Origin: Planctomycetia bacterium | GTDB lineage: Bacteria > Planctomycetota > Planctomycetia > Gemmatales > Gemmataceae | Reading direction: 5' to 3' | Assembly (NCBI GenBank): GCA_005772955.1 | Contig: SXID01000253.1 | Location: 1-50,023 of the forward strand | Length of the DNA: 50,023 bases | Shown here: in pieces, positions 37,043-46,114 of the stretch | How positions within the stretch are numbered: position 1 is the first letter of the stretch | How the letters are laid out: every line of letters starts with the position of its first letter | Translations under genes and position numbers: made by a program | Notes under the pieces: generated by a model | Database searches by the model: none | Told to the model about the DNA's origin: nothing | What the model saw: only the letters and a program-made list of their open reading frames with translations

Positions 37043-39433
37043 TTATGGCACCGGCAACACGACGCGGAACCCCGTGTACGGGCTAGCGACGTTCGCGAAC
37101 TGCGTCTGCGGTTGCGCCTTCCGTTCCACCTCGATCATCCTGTACGTCAACGGGCGGTCGAGGGTGTAGTTTCGGCCGCGCAGGATAACCTTGTCCTTTT
37201 CGGCGAGTGGATCCGTACCGAGGATCTTCTCTTCGCCCTTCTGAGTGAAGTTGCGCGTCCACTCGCGGCCGTTGCCGGCCATGTCGACCAACCCGAAGTA
37301 GTTCACATCGGCTTCGTTCGCGGCGCGTTTCACCGGTCCCGGTGCGTCCTTCTCGACCCACGCGCGACCCGGTGGCAGCGTTGGTCCCAGTCCTGCCTGA
37401 CCTTCCATGACGAAAAGCCCCGAGGCGATATCCCACTGGATTGTCGTCGGCAGGTCGCCACCGAATTCCTTGGCCGCGAACGTTCGCGCGTCGAGTGCGG
37501 TCACGCTCACTGCAGGGAGACCGTCGCGAACCTTGCCACCCGAATACACGTCGTTAGTCATCTTCGTTTCCGAGATGTAGTACGGGTCGCCGAGTTGGCC
37601 CGTTTGCCCGGCGATAAGCCGGAAGCGAACCGTCTCGCCGTGTCTCTTCACGAACACCCAGTCCGGCAACTTCTTGCCAATGAGTGACACAACCTTCGCG
37701 TTCTCGTCCGGCGTGGTGCCGGTGGGGAATACCCACTTAGGTTCGGGCTTCGCTGGAACCTCACGCGGGATGCCACCGACCACAGCGCTGGCGGAGGCGA
37801 GAATCATCTCGCTGGTCGCGGGGACCACTGGCCTCGGGGGGGGGATTGGGTCAGGTGGTGTGGTCTTCGGGTCAGTCGGTTTGGGGTCCACCTTCGCGAC
37901 GCTGCCGGGTTCGGTTGGCGTGGTTTTCGTTCCGCTGATTGCGAGGAGCCAGACGCCAAGAACGACGACCGCGGCCAGCGCGAGCGATCCGCCCGCGATC
38001 AGCGGCCACGCGCGATGCGTCCGCTCCGGGAGCGATTCCTCTTCCGCGGACGGCTCCTCTTCGAGGACCGGTTCCAGTTTCGGTTTCGATCGCAGCGAGT
38101 CGATGACGAGTGTTCCCCCGCTCTCGCCGGTGTCAACCACGCCGACGGAACCGAACACCGGGGTGGGGCGATCCGGGAGCCGCCGCCCGCCGCCCGCGAA
38201 CGGGAGCCTGAGCGCCTCGGCGAGATGCGCGGCGAAGTCGGTACAGGTTGCGTGGCGTTCGTGTGGCTTCGCGGCCAGCGCCTTGCGTAGCACCACTCGC
38301 TCGGCATCGGTTATCGTGTCGGCGAACTCGTAGCTCCCTTCCTGGTGGGCGATCATCAATTCGACTAGTGGGCGGGAGCTCAGTGGCGAACGACCTTGTC
38401 GCAGTTCGACGTAGGCGAACGCGAGGCTGTAGAGGTCGCTCGCCGCGCCGCCTTCGCCGCCCCAGATTTCCGGGGCCATGTAAGCCGGCGTCCCCGCGAG
38501 GCTCATCGACTCGACGATCTGCGTCTGAGCACGCGCCAGGCCGAAATCCGCGACCTTCGCGTGACCGTGCAGAATGAGGATGTTGTCCGGCTTCACGTCG
38601 CGGTGTGTGATCTTCTGTTCGTGGAGGAAGTCCAGCCCTTCTGCCGCTTCAGCGATGTACTGGAACAACTCGTCCGGTGGGACACCCGGTCGCCCCTGGG
38701 CGAGGCACTGCTTCAGTCGCCCGCGGAGAGTGCCCTCGGCCAGTTCCATCACGATGTGGAGCCGGTTATTCGTCACCCAGAAGTCTTCAGTCGCGAGTAG
38801 GTACGGGTGGCGCAGGTTCTTGATCAGTTCGAGGGACTTCAGTTCGCGCTGCCCGGCTTCGCGGTCGGCCGCTTGCAACAGAATCTTGATGGCCTTCTCG
38901 ATGCCGCTGGGCTGCTTGCGCGCGAGCCACACCTCGCCGTACATCCCGCGGCCAAGTTCGCGGACCAGTTCGTACTGCTGATCGACTGCGACCACGCTCT
39001 CGGCCATCGGTTCCCAGCGTGGACTACTGCTGGACGTGACGGTCTGCGACATACGGGCCGAGTTCAGGTCGGTCTGGATCGCGTCGAACTGCGACGGGAA
39101 CCGCTCGCGGTAGCTGGACACATCGACCATTTCGCTGGCACGAATCCGGCACTGGTGCTCTGCAAGAATGATCTCGGGCGGAACTTTGTCCGTCGGTCCG
39201 AGTTCTGGGTAGCGCGTGAGGTAGTCCTCGACCGTCGGCCTCTCGCCCTTGGCCCACCGGTGCTTCAAGTCGTGCGTGACGAGTTCCGTGAGTAGGAGCA
39301 GGCGTGCGTCGCCAACAAACCCCGTGAGGAACGGTTCCCAGTCGGTCACTGCGCCGCCGGAGAGCGCACGGTTGAACTGCTCGACGCGTATCGTGAGCAG
39401 GTTTCCCTCGTCGGTACCAAGCGTGTCGTCCAT
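37043..39433 (-). CDS. Membrane Ser/Thr protein kinase with extracytoplasmic FGE-sulfatase-like domain
   Basis: 796 residues. Residues 1-150 are a helical N-terminal region seen in planctomycete kinases (DYLTRYPELG, YRERFPSQFDAI). The kinase domain is at about 154-410: P-loop GRGMYGEVWLARK (161-), K183 in AIKIL, catalytic HRDVKPDN (D279), DFGLARA (D296), APE in YMAPEIWGG; all residues needed for activity are present. A single membrane helix lies at 476-500, then a proline/threonine-rich linker, then a C-terminal domain from about 600 (DPYYISETKMTNDVY, TALDARTFAAKEFG, NYFGLVDMAGNGREWTRNF, VILRGRNYT, TGFRVVLPVP) matching the formylglycine-generating-enzyme fold. No cysteine occurs in this domain, so it probably senses rather than catalyses. 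Divergent from the caspase gene. Confidence 0.92.
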   Translation of the reverse strand: MDDTLGTDEGNLLTIRVEQFNRALSGGAVTDWEPFLTGFVGDARLLLLTELVTHDLKHRWAKGERPTVEDYLTRYPELGPTDKVPPEIILAEHQCRIRASEMVDVSSYRERFPSQFDAIQTDLNSARMSQTVTSSSSPRWEPMAESVVAVDQQYELVRELGRGMYGEVWLARKQPSGIEKAIKILLQAADREAGQRELKSLELIKNLRHPYLLATEDFWVTNNRLHIVMELAEGTLRGRLKQCLAQGRPGVPPDELFQYIAEAAEGLDFLHEQKITHRDVKPDNILILHGHAKVADFGLARAQTQIVESMSLAGTPAYMAPEIWGGEGGAASDLYSLAFAYVELRQGRSPLSSRPLVELMIAHQEGSYEFADTITDAERVVLRKALAAKPHERHATCTDFAAHLAEALRLPFAGGGRRLPDRPTPVFGSVGVVDTGESGGTLVIDSLRSKPKLEPVLEEEPSAEEESLPERTHRAWPLIAGGSLALAAVVVLGVWLLAISGTKTTPTEPGSVAKVDPKPTDPKTTPPDPIPPPRPVVPATSEMILASASAVVGGIPREVPAKPEPKWVFPTGTTPDENAKVVSLIGKKLPDWVFVKRHGETVRFRLIAGQTGQLGDPYYISETKMTNDVYSGGKVRDGLPAVSVTALDARTFAAKEFGGDLPTTIQWDIASGLFVMEGQAGLGPTLPPGRAWVEKDAPGPVKRAANEADVNYFGLVDMAGNGREWTRNFTQKGEEKILGTDPLAEKDKVILRGRNYTLDRPLTYRMIEVERKAQPQTQFANVASPYTGFRVVLPVP

Positions 39434-39550
39434 CGGCCTCGTTCCGGGCGTCGTGAGGATAAGATAATTGTACTTGAAATCTGTGGCCTTCGCTCGCGTA
39501 TGCTATTTACATCGACCGCGTTTCGCCCAACAAACAACCGACGGCGATTT

Positions 39551-42500
39551 ATGAACGCGAACTCGCTGCTCCTGGCCCTCGCTGTACTCGCGAGTTTCGT
39601 GCCCTCTGTCGAGGCGCAACAACTCGACCGCCGTTCGCGCGATGAGCCGGAAATCGTCGTCGAAGCTGGCGGGCGGGTCGGGACGTGCGACGCGCTGTTG
39701 TTTACTCCCGACGGGAAGTACCTGCTCGCGGGCGGCGACGACAAAGTGGTTCGCGTTTGGGCGCACTCCGCGACCGGTCTCGAAACGGATCGCGCGAAAG
39801 TGCAAACGCTCCGGTGGCGCGCGTGGCGCGAACAACGAGGCGGGATCAAGGCCGTTGCCGTCACCGCGGACGGTTCGCGCGTCGCGGTCGGCGGCTACGG
39901 CATGAAGCCGAGTACGGTCGCGCTTCTCGACCGCGTGACCGGCGACACGATCGCGCTGACCTGGCCCGCCGTGCGCGAAGGCGATGCCACGTTCGGCACC
40001 GTGCGGGCGGTTGCGTTCCGGTCGGACGGCCATATCGGGTTCGGCACCGCCGACGGGAGCCTGTGGGTATGGGATCCGACCCCATTAAAAGCGCCTGATA
40101 AGGACGGACGCACCGCCGCGCCGCCGCGACGCGTCGGCAAGCACGACGTGCCGAAGCAGTCGGTCGGAGACGCCGGGTTCAACTTTCCGCGGCTCGTGTA
40201 CTTCCCCGATAAGAGCAAACTCGTTTCAGTCGCACAGAGCGGTCAGGTGTACGAGTGCGACCTCGCGAACACCATAGCCGACACCCCCAAGCAGGCGCCG
40301 CAGGGGAAGCCGTTGTTTGAAGCGGACCCGGACCAGCGGAACCACGCGCGTGTCTACCGGGCGGAACTCATCGACAACGGGAACTGGCTTCTGATCGCGT
40401 GCGCGGACAAGAAAGTACTGTTGCGCAGCGCGGACGGCGCGAAGACGATTCGTTTCGACCTCGATGACGACAACCAGTTCCCTCGAAGTGTCGCGTGGCA
40501 CCCAAAGACGCGACAACTCGCGGTCGGCGTCGGAACCGTCCTCAAGACCGGTGCGAAGCCGCGGTTCTATTCCGAGGGGAACGATCAAATCTGGCTCTAC
40601 GACGATCCCATCAAGAACCCGAAGCAGGAGCCGAAGCGGATTCCGCACACGGGTCCGGCGGAGGCGCTCGCGTTCCACCCCACCGAACCGCACCTCGCGA
40701 TAGCGGGCGGCGACGCCGACGAAGTGACGCTGATCAACCTCGCGAATCTTGAGAAGCCGTTGACGGTGGTTCGCGGGGCCGGGCGCCGCCCGTGGTCTGT
40801 GAACCTCTCGGCGAACGGCAAGATGGTTGGCGTGCAAACCGAACACGACGCGAAGTCCATCGACCCGAACGCGCGCGGTGCGGGCGCGTGGACTCGCTTC
40901 GATCTGTCTCGCCTCAAAGCGACACTCGACGAGGGCCAGGCCTGGGTGAACCCCGTTCCGGCGGCGGACGGGTGGACCATCGTGCCGGACGAGCAGAGCC
41001 AGTTCGTGTGGTACGCGGAGCGATTGCGCGACGGGAAGAGAGAGCAATATCAGCTCAAACTCGACCGCGTTCGCGACCAGGCGCCGACGTGTTACACCTT
41101 CCTCCCCGCCGCCGGCGCGGTCCCAACACGCGTTATCGTCGGCCACTACTACGGCTGCACGCTGTTTGAACTTGTGCCGGAACGTGCCACTAAGGACAAC
41201 ACGCTCGCGGGCACGAAGGTGTTCACCGGACACGCGGGAGAGGTCACGTCTGTCGTAGCGGCGAAGGATCAAACGTGGTTCGTCACCGGCGGTAAGGATC
41301 AGACCGTCGCGGCGTGGTCGCTGAAGGACTGGAAGAGCGAACCGGGCCTAGGTGCAAAGTTCATCGAGAAGGACGGCGCAAGTGTGGCCGCCGTTGATAC
41401 CGGTTCGCCGGGATGGGAAGCGGGGCTACGCGCCGGCGACGTTCTCGACCTGCTCGCGGTCGAGGGGAAACTCGTGTTCGATCGGCGCAAAGGCGCGTCG
41501 GTCGGAACGCTGGCGGACGCGCTCGGTGCGCTGAAGTCACCGCGCCCGGGCATTGAACTCTTCCTCGGGATCGCGGCCCGCGAGAAGGCTACACGGCGCG
41601 ACACACTCACCACAGTGCGCCAACGTCCGCTGTGGAAGTGGTTCCCCGCGTTCGACAACCAGAACCGCATGAACGACTGGGTCGTGTGGATGTGGCACGG
41701 TTCGTACTATCACACGAAGACCACAAACGGCGACCGGCTCGCTGGCTGGCACGTCAACAGCCCCGATCCCGGCGGGCGCCCGGAGTTCTACCAACTTCAG
41801 CAGTTCGAGAAGCAGTTCCACATGCCGGACGTTCTCGAAAAGATCACCGATACACGCGACGCGGGTGAGGCGCTCGTCGCGGCCCGTGGCGAGACACCGA
41901 CGCTTGTGCCGTTTACGAAGTACGAACCGGCCCCGGTCCGGGTCGCGTTGCAACAACTCAGCGTGCAGAAAGAGGGCCTCCCGCTCACCATCACGATGCG
42001 CGCACGCGGGACGAACCCTGACTTGCTTCCGGAACGCGTTGAACTGTGGGTGAACGATCACCTCGTGGAGTCGTGGCCGCCGACGGGGAAGACGCTTGAT
42101 TCGACGAAGCCATTCGACGTGCCGTACACGATCCCCGCGGACAAGTTTTGGGCGGGCGAGAACCAGATCGCGGTCCTCGCGTTCAACGCTGCCGGCGGTC
42201 GGGCGGAAGAGTTTCACCTCGTGAAGAACCCGCGTCAGCCCGGCGACGCGAACCTGCTTGCGGTGCTCACCGGCATTAACGACTACTCCGACACGCGGAA
42301 GAATCTGCTCGGCGCGCGGAAGTTCGGCGACCTCAAGAGCGCGCACAACGACGCGACCGCACTTGGGAAAGAACTCGGCAAGTATGCCGGACCGAGACTG
42401 CTGTTCAAGGACGCGAAGATCGACCTCCAACTCGACCCCGTCCGCACCAAACTCACCGACACCCTCGCGCTGCTCGCGACGCGCGCGAAACCGGACGACA

Positions 42501-43060
42501 CGCTACTCGTGTTCTTCGCCGGCCACGGCGACCTGCTCATGCCGAAGGACGGGCCGCTTCCGAACGAGGGCCGCAGTGTTCTCACGGACCAGGGCGTGTT
42601 CCTGTTTTGCTGCCCGGATTATTCCCCGCACAAGCCCGGTGCGACCGCGCTCTCCGCGGAGGAACTGTTCGCCGCACTCGCGAAGATCAACTGCCGCAAG
42701 GTGGTGTTGCTCGACGCATGCCATTCGGGGCGCGTCGCGACCCCGAATCTGCTCCGCCGGTGCGTGCCAAACGGTCGGGGGCCGCTCATCATCGCCGCCT
42801 GCGACCAAGGCGAACAGTCCTACGAACACCCGAAGTACGGCCATGGGGTGTTCACCTACGCGGTCCTCGACGCGCTGGACAAGGACAGGGGCTACCGGAA
42901 AGCGGACTACGACTCCGACGGCGCGCTGTCGCCAGAAGAGTTGTTCGATTACGTTGCGGAGAAGGTGCCGGGCCTGCTGAAGCGGGTCGGGCTGATGGAA
43001 CCGCAGACGCCGGTCAGCTACCCGCGTCAGTTGCCGAAGACCGCGTTCTTGAAGCGGTGA
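39551..43060 (+). CDS. Exported WD40-PDZ-caspase (peptidase C14) protein with EF-hand
   Basis: 1169 residues from the ATG at 39551, which opens a signal peptide (NSLLLALAVLASFVPSVEAQ). Residues ~40-600 carry WD40-type repeats (DALLFTPDGKYLLAGGDDKVVRVW, FTGHAGEVTSVVAAKDQTWFVTGGKDQTVAAW). A PDZ-like domain is at about 605-680 (VAAVDTGSPGWEAGLRAGDVLDLLA). The caspase domain is at about 898-1150 with the His-Cys dyad H992 (FFAGHGD) and C1057 (LDACHSG); both are intact. At 1119-1130 lies DYDSDGALSPEE, a perfect EF-hand loop, within the small-subunit side of the peptidase. Metacaspase-like enzymes cleave after basic residues, and some need calcium; here calcium control is inferred. Secretion to the periplasm is expected. 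Followed by a cytochrome c gene 8 bases downstream. Confidence 0.92.
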   Translation: MNANSLLLALAVLASFVPSVEAQQLDRRSRDEPEIVVEAGGRVGTCDALLFTPDGKYLLAGGDDKVVRVWAHSATGLETDRAKVQTLRWRAWREQRGGIKAVAVTADGSRVAVGGYGMKPSTVALLDRVTGDTIALTWPAVREGDATFGTVRAVAFRSDGHIGFGTADGSLWVWDPTPLKAPDKDGRTAAPPRRVGKHDVPKQSVGDAGFNFPRLVYFPDKSKLVSVAQSGQVYECDLANTIADTPKQAPQGKPLFEADPDQRNHARVYRAELIDNGNWLLIACADKKVLLRSADGAKTIRFDLDDDNQFPRSVAWHPKTRQLAVGVGTVLKTGAKPRFYSEGNDQIWLYDDPIKNPKQEPKRIPHTGPAEALAFHPTEPHLAIAGGDADEVTLINLANLEKPLTVVRGAGRRPWSVNLSANGKMVGVQTEHDAKSIDPNARGAGAWTRFDLSRLKATLDEGQAWVNPVPAADGWTIVPDEQSQFVWYAERLRDGKREQYQLKLDRVRDQAPTCYTFLPAAGAVPTRVIVGHYYGCTLFELVPERATKDNTLAGTKVFTGHAGEVTSVVAAKDQTWFVTGGKDQTVAAWSLKDWKSEPGLGAKFIEKDGASVAAVDTGSPGWEAGLRAGDVLDLLAVEGKLVFDRRKGASVGTLADALGALKSPRPGIELFLGIAAREKATRRDTLTTVRQRPLWKWFPAFDNQNRMNDWVVWMWHGSYYHTKTTNGDRLAGWHVNSPDPGGRPEFYQLQQFEKQFHMPDVLEKITDTRDAGEALVAARGETPTLVPFTKYEPAPVRVALQQLSVQKEGLPLTITMRARGTNPDLLPERVELWVNDHLVESWPPTGKTLDSTKPFDVPYTIPADKFWAGENQIAVLAFNAAGGRAEEFHLVKNPRQPGDANLLAVLTGINDYSDTRKNLLGARKFGDLKSAHNDATALGKELGKYAGPRLLFKDAKIDLQLDPVRTKLTDTLALLATRAKPDDTLLVFFAGHGDLLMPKDGPLPNEGRSVLTDQGVFLFCCPDYSPHKPGATALSAEELFAALAKINCRKVVLLDACHSGRVATPNLLRRCVPNGRGPLIIAACDQGEQSYEHPKYGHGVFTYAVLDALDKDRGYRKADYDSDGALSPEELFDYVAEKVPGLLKRVGLMEPQTPVSYPRQLPKTAFLKR

Positions 43061-43068
43061 GGGGCTTT

Positions 43069-44631
43069 ATGCGCACGAGAATCGGTCACATCCGCGCAAT
43101 CGCGGTGTTCACACTCCTGTTCACACCCGTGTTCGCGCGCAGTGCCGAGCCGCCCGAACACCGCGTCACCGGCGATCTCGCGATCCGCGCGCGCGCCATC
43201 ATCCAGAAGCATTGCTCCGCGTGCCACACCGGGAACCCCGAACCGGGCTTCAGCAAACTCAAGTTGATGGACCGCAAACAAGTGGTCGCGAGGAAGAAGC
43301 CGGTTCCGCTCGTCACCGCGAAAGGGCGGTCGCAACTCCTCGAACTCGTCAAAGACGGTTCGATGCCACCGGGGAATCGGCCCGGTCTGGACGCCGAAGA
43401 GATCGCGGTATTGGAGAAGTGGGTGAACGCGGAAGCACCCGCGTACCCGATCACGTTCGACGAGCGGACCACACTTTCGGATATCGCCGATGACTTCGAG
43501 CGAATCGTCGAGAAGACGAAGGTCGGTGACCCCGCGGAGTACATACGTTACGTCTCGTTCGCGCACCTGATCCGCGACGGTCAACCGATTCCCGACCTCG
43601 TCGCAGCGGAGAAAGCCCTCAACGATGCGCTTTCGGCAGCGGCTGAGCGGCCGTTCCACGCGGAGCCTGTCGATGTCGCCGCAACGCTTTTCCGCGTCGA
43701 AACGAGCCGACTGGGTTGGTTGACACGCGAACTCTTCAACAAGATGGAGGTGCGCGACAAGGACAAGGGCGGCAAACGGATCATCGGTGGCGCGTATCGC
43801 TTCCAACCGTTTGACTTGCTTCTGATGGAGTATCCCCATGCGCGGGTGCTCCCAGCTAACGACCCGGACGAACTGCGACTGGAAAAGTTGCTCGCGCGCG
43901 AGAACCAGTTCCGACCGGTGCCATTCGTTCGCGGGGACTGGCTCGCGGACGCACTCCTTGGCGATGGCTTTTTCTCTCGCCTGATGGGGAACAAGAAACT
44001 GACCCCGCTCGCGGAGGACATCAAGTCACTGGCCGCACTTGAGAAGGCGCTGGCACGCAAGGGAGAGGAACCCGATGGGCCGATCGCGAGTCCATTCGTG
44101 GGAGCCAAACCCGTGATCGTGCCCGCGCCGCTCGCGGGCCGAGCATCTATCCCGCCGCTCGCGGGGTGGTACACCGGCGATGTGACGCCCGAGAAAGCCC
44201 CGTTCACGCTCAAGGCCGAGTTGGTCGTTTCTGGAAAAGCAGTCACACAGGTGGTTGCCGACCAAGAGTTCCAGTTGCGTGTGGAATGCGATCGCACGGT
44301 GCAGTTCACGTTGCTGATGATCCTCTCGGACGGCGAAGTGCGGGTGCAACCGGTGCAGGGCGGCAGCGTACTCAAGGAGAGGACCGAGCGGTCACTGGCG
44401 CCGCTCGGGAAGACCAACTTCGTGATCGCGGGAATCGGAACCGGTGGCGACGTGGCGACAGAACACTTCGTCCTCCTCGCCTCCGAGACCGCGCTGCCGG
44501 AAATACTGATCGTGAGGAGCAAGCACCCCGACAAGTGGATCGAGCGGTTCCTGCCTGATCCGACCGCGAAAGGCTTCGACCCAAATACGGCGGTGCGGAA
44601 AGTCATCCCGATCAAGGTAACGAGGAAATGA
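43069..44631 (+). CDS. Exported cytochrome c-type protein with C-terminal DUF4384-like domain
   Basis: 520 residues from the ATG at 43069 (signal peptide IRAIAVFTLLFTPVFARSA); the frame is open to 42607 but that part is a shadow of the caspase gene. A cytochrome c motif lies at residues 49-53 (CSACH), and SMPPGNRPGLDAEEIAVLEKWV at about 105-125 supplies the distal methionine. Residues ~140-350 are helical and unassigned (EYIRYVSFAHLIRDG). Residues ~375-505 (WYTGDVTPEKAPFTLKAEL, DQEFQLRVECDRTVQFTLLMILSDGEVRVQPVQG) resemble DUF4384, a domain commonly attached to bacterial caspases. The 8-base gap to the caspase stop argues for one transcript and joint function. Confidence 0.8.
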   Translation: MRTRIGHIRAIAVFTLLFTPVFARSAEPPEHRVTGDLAIRARAIIQKHCSACHTGNPEPGFSKLKLMDRKQVVARKKPVPLVTAKGRSQLLELVKDGSMPPGNRPGLDAEEIAVLEKWVNAEAPAYPITFDERTTLSDIADDFERIVEKTKVGDPAEYIRYVSFAHLIRDGQPIPDLVAAEKALNDALSAAAERPFHAEPVDVAATLFRVETSRLGWLTRELFNKMEVRDKDKGGKRIIGGAYRFQPFDLLLMEYPHARVLPANDPDELRLEKLLARENQFRPVPFVRGDWLADALLGDGFFSRLMGNKKLTPLAEDIKSLAALEKALARKGEEPDGPIASPFVGAKPVIVPAPLAGRASIPPLAGWYTGDVTPEKAPFTLKAELVVSGKAVTQVVADQEFQLRVECDRTVQFTLLMILSDGEVRVQPVQGGSVLKERTERSLAPLGKTNFVIAGIGTGGDVATEHFVLLASETALPEILIVRSKHPDKWIERFLPDPTAKGFDPNTAVRKVIPIKVTRK

Positions 44632-44746: not shown

Positions 44747-46114
44747 ATGCGCCGGGTATTTGTCCCCGCACTCGTCGGTCTGTTGCTCGCGGGTAGCACC
44801 GCCCGCGCGCAGGAACGGTTAGTCCCCTCGCTCACGGGTCACTGGAACGGGTTTCGCTACTCACGCCCACTGCCCCCGCCTTGTCCACCTCCTGGGGTCG
44901 GCCCCTACGTGCCCGGCGTTCCGGGCATGCCGGGAACCATGCCGGTCGATCCGAATGTGCCGCGCATGAACCCGCCGATGCCGCCGCCCGGCGTGCCTTC
45001 AATCGATCCGCCTGTAGGGGTAGCACCGCCCCCGAACCCAGTCGAACGCCGGCTGACCGATCCGTACGCACAGGCGCGGGAAGCTGGTGGCGAACCCTCG
45101 CGCACGTTCAACGAGAACTTCGACGGTGACTTCGGAGGCAGTTTCTACAAACAGAGCCTCACCACGGGCTTCAAGGTGGTGCCGCGTGTGGTCGGTTCCA
45201 CGCCGCGAGTGATCGGCACTTCGCAGCGCGTTGTCGGGTTCACACCGGTCCAGCGACTGGACGTCAGCGGAGAACCGATCATCGTGAACGAACCGATCAT
45301 CGTGAACGACGTGGTGGCACAGAAGCGCCTCGCACGGATCACGCTCGCGTCCCGTTACAGCGGCGTGATGATCACCGACAACGACAGCCCGCGCCCGCAG
45401 GACCGCATCTATGGAGGCTACAACTTCTATGACGACATTGGCGGCTCGCTGAACCCCGGTTCCCCGCAGACCGACCTTCAGCGGCAGACAGTTGGCTTCG
45501 AGAAGACGTTCCTCGATGGCGATGCGTCGTTCGGGATGCGGATGCCGTTCGTACAGCAATACGGGGGCGGCGTTGCTGGGACGAATAACGTGGGCGACCT
45601 TTCGCTGCTCGGGAAGTATGCGTTCTACAACAACCGCGAGACTGGTGACCTGTTCACGGTCGGCTTCGTGCTAACCGTGCCGACCGGGGGTGGGGACGCG
45701 ATCCTCGGCGACGGTTCCAAAGCCCCGCACTCGCTCCTGTTCCAGCCGTGGGGCGGGTTCGTGAAGGTCATCGACCGCACGTTCATCCAGGGCATCACGA
45801 GCCTGATCGTCCCGACAGACGAACGTGACCCGACGTTGTTGAACAACAGCATCGGCGTCGGCTACTACGCGTACCGTGGCGGGGTGGGCAGCGTGTTGGC
45901 GAGTGTGGCGCCGGTCGTCGAGTTGCACATCCGGACACCGCTGACGAGCAGGCACCAGGATGGACTGGTGTACCTTCAGGACCAGGTTAACGTAACTAGC
46001 GGTGTCCGCTTCCGGTTCAACCGTGCGACGCTCAGCACCTCGGTATGTATCCCAGTTGTCGGGCCGCGTCCCTGGGCGGTCGAGGCGATGAGCTTCCTCA
46101 ACTTTAACTTCTGA
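44747..46114 (+). CDS. Putative outer-membrane beta-barrel protein with proline-rich N-terminus
   Basis: 455 residues. Signal peptide [21 protein letters not shown]. Residues ~40-110 are proline/glycine-rich ([39 protein letters not shown]). From about 195 alternating strands typical of barrels appear ([67 protein letters not shown]), and the chain ends in FLNFNF, with the terminal aromatic expected for outer-membrane assembly. Similar proteins are widespread and uncharacterised in planctomycetes; the fold resembles the MetA/phenol-pathway barrels. Lies 115 bases after the cytochrome c gene. Function unknown. Confidence 0.7.

Follow-up and report, generated by a model that had tools for sequence, protein, structure and literature searches.

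Prokaryotic caspase homologues, the orthocaspases, have been defined as C14 peptidases without a p10 domain (PubMed Central, PMC6426788). In a 2012 survey, WD40 was the commonest extra Pfam domain of bacterial caspases and members with N-terminal signal or transmembrane (TM) segments were known (PMC3501461). Orthocaspases are called calcium-independent, which a review credits to the missing p10 calcium site (PMC5756287), and autocatalysis of MaOC1 without calcium is reported as demonstrated (PMC8283722). An EF-hand motif is mentioned for seven archaeal orthocaspases, in a single sentence (PMC6426788). Here, we describe a caspase homologue encoded on a 50,023-nucleotide stretch of DNA from a Planctomycetia bacterium of the Gemmataceae (assembly GCA_005772955.1, contig SXID01000253.1; hereafter the window), which carries an EF-hand-like loop, DYDSDGALSPEE, in the linker between helices alpha4 and alpha5 of its caspase domain. 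The protein, from a member of the Gemmata group, is predicted to be a C14 cysteine protease of the orthocaspase type, and we give roughly even chances to the reading that it is an exported Arg/Lys protease in which calcium bound by this loop would act as a structural clamp between the two helices. The elements on which this reading depends are as follows.

39551..43060, + strand: caspase gene, encoding a propeller-PDZ-Ig-caspase protein (translation of 1169 residues followed by a stop)
42254..43057, + strand: caspase (Peptidase C14) domain, residues 902-1169, placed by Pfam, AlphaFold2 (AF2) and fold matches
42524..42526, + strand: catalytic His992
42719..42721, + strand: catalytic Cys1057, within DACHSG
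42905..42940, + strand: EF-hand-like loop, residues 1119-1130, in the alpha4-alpha5 linker, placed by motif, conservation and models

The protein resembles the prokaryotic orthocaspases (MaOC1 of Microcystis and the WD40-caspases) in its p20 fold, His-Cys dyad and C14 match, as well as in the WD40 fusion and the frequently observed N-terminal signal or TM segment (PMC3501461, PMC5756287). It differs in adding the alpha4-alpha5 loop and a PDZ-like domain; the orthocaspases are described as calcium-independent. The archaeal EF-hand orthocaspases likewise combine an EF-hand motif with a prokaryotic caspase homologue; their motif is listed among added N- or C-terminal domains with its position not stated in that sentence (PMC6426788), whereas the loop described here is bacterial and lies inside the caspase fold. 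Type I metacaspases (CgMCA-I, 7QP1; TbMCA-Ib) share the caspase fold, the dyad and, as predicted for this protein, a link to calcium, and are activated by it via a site other than this loop, with D198, D214 and D245 among the ligands in CgMCA-I (PMC9622860). That site is elsewhere in the chain. In an alignment with 7qp0, based on sequence only and used to map CgMCA-I D214, D215 and D245, the places of these three were taken by A1036, E1037 and T1064; the Yca1 alignment ran in another register near a gap and likewise had no Asp at the metacaspase calcium positions. A metacaspase calcium site in this protein was ruled out because the aspartates mapped are not kept.

The MALT1 paracaspase is close in fold (Z ~22; Foldseek) and also has an Ig-like domain adjoining the caspase, which in the protein described here is N-terminal to it. 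To our knowledge, MALT1 has no WD40 or PDZ domain and no EF-like loop, and its death domain had no counterpart among the Pfam matches listed for our protein. The best Foldseek match of the caspase domain was a bacterial caspase-like protein, GSU0716 of Geobacter sulfurreducens (3bij), whose profile match stops before the loop region. No description of an EF-hand-type loop inside a bacterial caspase fold was found in the open-licence PMC literature, and among the prokaryotic-caspase papers found there the term EF-hand occurred only in PMC6426788, being absent from PMC8195603 and PMC8283722. The initial annotation of this locus nevertheless overstated its novelty in calling a secreted bacterial caspase with an EF-hand and a PDZ domain undescribed, since WD40-caspases and exported caspases with signal or TM segments (PMC3501461), as well as archaeal EF-hand orthocaspases (PMC6426788), are already published.

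The EF-hand-like loop within the caspase domain

Compared with the EF-hand loop consensus and a PROSITE-like pattern, DYDSDGALSPEE fits the 12-residue loop, with ligands at positions 1, 3, 5, 9 and 12, Gly at position 6 and a hydrophobic residue at position 8. Residues 1119-1130 were the sole EF-hand-type match in the whole protein. After shuffling, a motif arose anywhere in the protein in 61/5000 trials with the PROSITE-like pattern and in 20/5000 with a stricter one; by itself, such a motif is only modestly unlikely to occur by chance. The loop was counted as real because it is conserved in relatives, and not because of the motif alone.

Relatives were sought in 59 genomes. Near full-length matches occurred in 11/18 genomes of the same genus and 6/18 other genomes of the family (one in two pieces), whereas the 22 genomes from beyond the family gave partial matches or no match at all. 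The nearest named relative was Gemmata sp. IIL30 (72% identity over the protein). Merging identical genes reduced 32 orthologous proteins to 22 distinct ones; this count excludes the truncated L015, L021 and L044 (the L021 gene being represented as L050) and the weaker full-length matches of 31-38% identity, each of them an additional copy in G035, G004 or G008. Eighteen of the 22 distinct orthologues had an intact loop. Ligand positions were strongly constrained, with Asp at 1119 in 21, Asp, Asn or Ser at 1121 in 19, Asp or Asn at 1123 in 21 and Glu at 1130 in all 22. Mean entropy was 0.94 bits at the ligand, Gly and hydrophobic positions versus 2.30 bits at the other five, a gap matched or exceeded by 4 of the 792 possible choices of five loop positions. 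Loop positions 2, 4 and 7 drift, while 1119, 1121 and 1123 retain oxygen-bearing residues. This pattern is what a metal site would predict, and the loop conservation among orthologues rules out a chance motif; the condition that the initial annotation named as refuting, a lack of conservation of the Asp/Glu positions in close relatives, does not hold, the drift being at non-ligand positions.

Departures from the motif were found in L046 (Zavarzinella formosa, the same gene as L018) and L049, where insertions of at least two residues break the EF spacing while E1130 is retained. These are natural loss variants and useful as controls.

In two separate AF2 runs the loop was set between helices at 1100-1109 and 1115-1118 on one side and a helix at 1128-1145 on the other. 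The predicted setting is a helix-loop-helix, for which the initial annotation had suggested to look, and it falls within the linker that joins the final two helices of the caspase domain. The entering helix is only four residues long and the leaving helix is long. Both models placed a two-residue strand at 1125-1126 (loop positions 7-8), and such a strand at these positions is EF-hand-like geometry. By block, the predicted local distance difference test (pLDDT) score over the loop was 96-98 when the domain was modelled and 83-84 for the full-length protein. In terms of caspase topology, the loop would be the turn that joins alpha4 to alpha5, at the sheet end remote from the active site.

The caspase assignment is well above threshold, with Peptidase_C14 (PF00656) scoring 43.1 bits at residues 903-1140 against a curated cut-off of 21.4. 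The AF2 model of the domain, built from the caspase alignment, reached a pLDDT of 91.3 and a predicted template modelling (pTM) score of 0.90, and in the 50 top rows of its fold comparison it matched metacaspases, MALT1, caspases and legumain with Z of 20-22 over 197-226 aligned residues. A phmmer search of the domain against PDB returned weak metacaspase matches and, at the loop, a borderline one (E 0.12) with a calcyphosin-like EF-hand protein. The caspase alignment comprised this protein and 66 of the 71 loci of a wider set (67 rows; the partial L086, L094, L102, L103 and L104 were left out). H992, G993, D1055 and C1057 were invariant (67/67), which upholds the complete His-Cys dyad reported for H992 and C1057, the counts for D1055 and C1057 being biased as both residues belong to one of the two patterns used to fetch the rows. 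D934 was kept in 66/67 rows, and together with D1055 it presumably corresponds to the acidic S1 pocket of the Arg-specific MALT1 and metacaspases. The predicted protease would thus probably cut after Arg or Lys. Two more specific assignments were rejected: the NCBIfam family caspase_w_EACC1 (68.6 bits versus a cut-off of 140) and a PADLOC defence-system caspase, for which the sole match (PDLC02987, 39.4 bits) covered the caspase part only.

Occurrence of the loop across the caspase family

The wider set of 71 caspase loci was retrieved with a query that ended before the loop and with two search patterns, neither of which touches it, so the search was not steered by the loop. Counted on 70 loci (omitting L104, with the loop region cut off or unreached in L044, L086, L094, L102 and L103), the strict loop occurred in at least 22. 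It was present in 13 of the 15 nearest loci (L034-L048; cut off in L044, broken in L046) and, at the same site, in 9/55 more distant ones, while no strict motif was found elsewhere in 67,763 residues of the open frames of the 70-locus set. Pfam-family samples provided a further 60 PF00656 loci, of which L108 had no match to the profile. Among 30 caspases from six chosen genomes the strict loop occurred in eight, a fraction biased upward since these genomes were picked for their wider-set loci (four with a full or near loop) and including genes already counted (L136 = L087, L150 = L093). The 27,330 other residues of the Pfam-sample proteins contained no strict motif. Loop bearers outside Planctomycetota were found in Pseudomonadota (Variovorax), Bacteroidota, Cyanobacteriota (Dendronalium), Armatimonadota and Hydrogenedentota. 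The site of the loop is fixed, and the loop itself is a minority trait that appears to have undergone several gains or losses. A loop peculiar to, or tied to, this domain architecture was ruled out, given that distantly related bacterial caspases have it at this site too.

A tree of 66 rows was built without the loop columns, and loop presence was scored on it by the PROSITE-like pattern. Distributing the loop over its 24 bearers needed 11 changes, of which well-supported branches forced six. With shuffled loop labels the mean was 19.7, and 0/500 shuffles were as low as 11. Gains and losses are indistinguishable on this tree, and parts of it are unsure owing to several long branches. Position 3 best separated the two groups, with Asp, Asn or Ser in 24/24 loop rows versus Asp or Asn in 10/42 others.

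Five Flavobacteriaceae loci (L063, L074, L080, L083 and L084) shared, in place of the EF-like loop, YDTW.G followed by an IS.LK.Y helix start at the loop site. This suggests several forms of the alpha4-alpha5 linker, each specific to a family.

Calcium clamp, calcium gate or metal-free turn

Once the protein is exported, its tandem propellers and PDZ-like domain would hold a partner or substrate, and the caspase at the C-terminus would cut, probably after Arg or Lys. One calcium ion bound by loop 1119-1130 would fasten alpha4 to alpha5 and so stabilise the later half of the caspase domain. Since free calcium levels are high beyond the cytoplasm, the site would mostly become occupied once export has taken place; calcium would then serve folding or stability as a cofactor and would not be a second-messenger switch. 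Calcium binding by the loop is, on this prediction, likely. A structural role seems at least as likely as gating, because in the caspase topology the linker would lie at the sheet end away from the active site.

Several findings weigh against such a clamp. A pattern scan of the single 1169-residue chain found no second EF-hand for pairing, which rules out a canonical EF-hand pair inside the protein. Pfam EF-hand_5 scored 13 bits at residues 1116-1131, below its cut-off of 25.9. The 'perfect EF-hand' of the initial annotation is thus an overstatement: the loop agrees with the consensus, but it is single, unpaired, entered by a four-residue helix and below the Pfam cut-off. The loop was broken or missing in 4/22 orthologues (L018, L020, L049 and L050), and the evenly drawn Planctomycetota sample had the strict loop in 2/29 caspases and a loose one in 5/29. 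L087 bears the loop with no signal peptide evident by eye, so the loop is not strictly linked to export. Finally, the 42 alignment rows without the full loop shared many of its residues (D1119 in 23, D1123 in 17, G1124 in 21, Val, Ile or Leu at 1126 in 36, E1130 in 24), and part of the loop conservation may therefore belong to the caspase fold, as a general helix start.

This last point bears on an alternative that we consider unlikely, in which the loop is a helix cap or linker of the caspase fold, an EF-hand look-alike that binds no calcium in nature. The commonness of most loop positions in rows without the full motif would fit such a metal-free turn, as would the short entering helix, the missing partner EF-hand and the DGEIS..E found there in Arabidopsis metacaspase 4, itself a very weak match (-0.5 bits). 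Against it, residues 1119, 1121 and 1123 hold oxygen-bearing side chains while positions 2, 4 and 7 drift, a pattern that a mere turn would not require; the two-residue strand at positions 7-8, being EF-hand-like, points the same way. A calcium gate, as proposed in the initial annotation, would have calcium at the alpha4-alpha5 loop turn on the protease, either directly or through the ordering of alpha5 and the next loop. It is possible but on our analysis less likely than the favoured structural clamp, given where the loop lies and how steady calcium is beyond the cytoplasm. In both models alpha5 runs into the final strand, and in caspases the loop between these two elements shapes the substrate pocket, which counts for gating. 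So do the recurrence of the loop in separate branches, as a regulatory add-on might show, and the calcium activation of metacaspases, though that acts via another site (PMC9622860). Set against these are the place that caspase topology would give the linker, at the sheet end away from the active site, the lack of the metacaspase calcium aspartates, the steadily high calcium that an exported protein meets, and the description of orthocaspases as calcium-independent (PMC5756287), including MaOC1 autocatalysis (PMC8283722). A pseudo-protease or scaffold, with the caspase domain as a binding module and function exerted via the propellers and the PDZ-like domain, is very improbable: loss of the dyad is common in Planctomycetes caspases, with 64% conservation reported (PMC3501461), but H992 and C1057 were present in 67/67 rows, the Cys count being biased by the search pattern.

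Beyond the clamp in this protein, we tentatively propose that some bacterial caspases, a minority spread over several phyla, have a built-in EF-hand-type site between alpha4 and alpha5, gained or lost repeatedly and unrelated to the metacaspase site, which would make their activity or stability calcium-dependent. If true, this would be a second kind of calcium site in the caspase fold, some bacterial caspases would rely on or respond to calcium, and the calcium-independent view of orthocaspases would rest on members without the loop. Calcium dependence of loop-bearing orthocaspases is a testable question, for which one domain of 280 residues and a set of three point mutants would be enough.

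Domain layout and gene neighbourhood

The remainder of the caspase protein was assigned as follows.

39551..39616, + strand: signal-peptide-like N-terminus, residues 1-22 (ending VEA, followed by QQ), read from the sequence
39653..41335, + strand: WD40 beta-propeller region, residues 35-595, from Pfam, model strands and Foldseek
41348..41611, + strand: PDZ-like domain, residues 600-687, from PDZ_6 near its cut-off and the order of strands and helices
41936..42229, + strand: Ig-like beta domain directly N-terminal to the caspase, residues 796-893, from seven model strands

Export of the protein is suggested by its signal-peptide-like start, and a hydrophobic N-terminus was also present in the untruncated orthologues. 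Residues 3-15 formed a helix of low pLDDT in the full-length model. With the in-frame ATG at 39500 as its start, the protein would be 17 residues longer. Pfam WD40 scored 76.3 bits versus a cut-off of 27, strands spanned residues 35-590 in the full-length model, and the best Foldseek matches of that model were tandem-propeller proteins. PDZ_6 scored 26.1 bits at residues 612-642, slightly below its cut-off of 27; of five orthologues scanned, two exceeded it (29.1 and 30.0 bits in L041 and L043) and three did not (26.3, 14 and 19.4 bits). Residues 602-687 were modelled in the PDZ-like order beta-alpha-beta-beta-alpha-beta. A mixed stretch (~695-790) separates this domain from the seven predicted strands of residues 796-893, for which the name Ig-like fold seems appropriate. 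Translation, Pfam and the model thus bear out the annotated signal-peptide-like start, propellers and PDZ-like domain, together with the intact dyad.

Three neighbouring genes in the window were also compared.

37043..39433, - strand: Ser/Thr kinase with a C-terminal FGE-sulfatase domain (Pfam), a divergent neighbour
43069..44631, + strand: CxxCH cytochrome-like gene, 520 aa, with a signal-peptide-like start and a weak Pfam match below cut-off
44747..46114, + strand: 455-aa protein, Pro-rich in its N-terminal part and signal-peptide-like at its start, from its open reading frame

At farther loci these neighbours were at most weak or displaced (L043, L046 and L048), and otherwise none occurred within the sometimes short sequence. 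Conservation of the neighbourhood says little about function, and the neighbourhood was rejected as an explanation of it. FGE domains fused to prokaryotic caspases have been reported (PMC6426788), so the kinase-FGE protein and the caspase may form a functional pair; their genes adjoin, on the upstream side of the caspase, in L034, L035, L037 and L039. The cytochrome-like gene (motif CSACH), whose product had no NCBIfam match, starts 8 bp past the caspase stop and lies directly 3' of the caspase in L034, L035, L036 and L038. The 455-aa protein had no Pfam or NCBIfam match; both L034 and L035 have it as a conserved neighbour.

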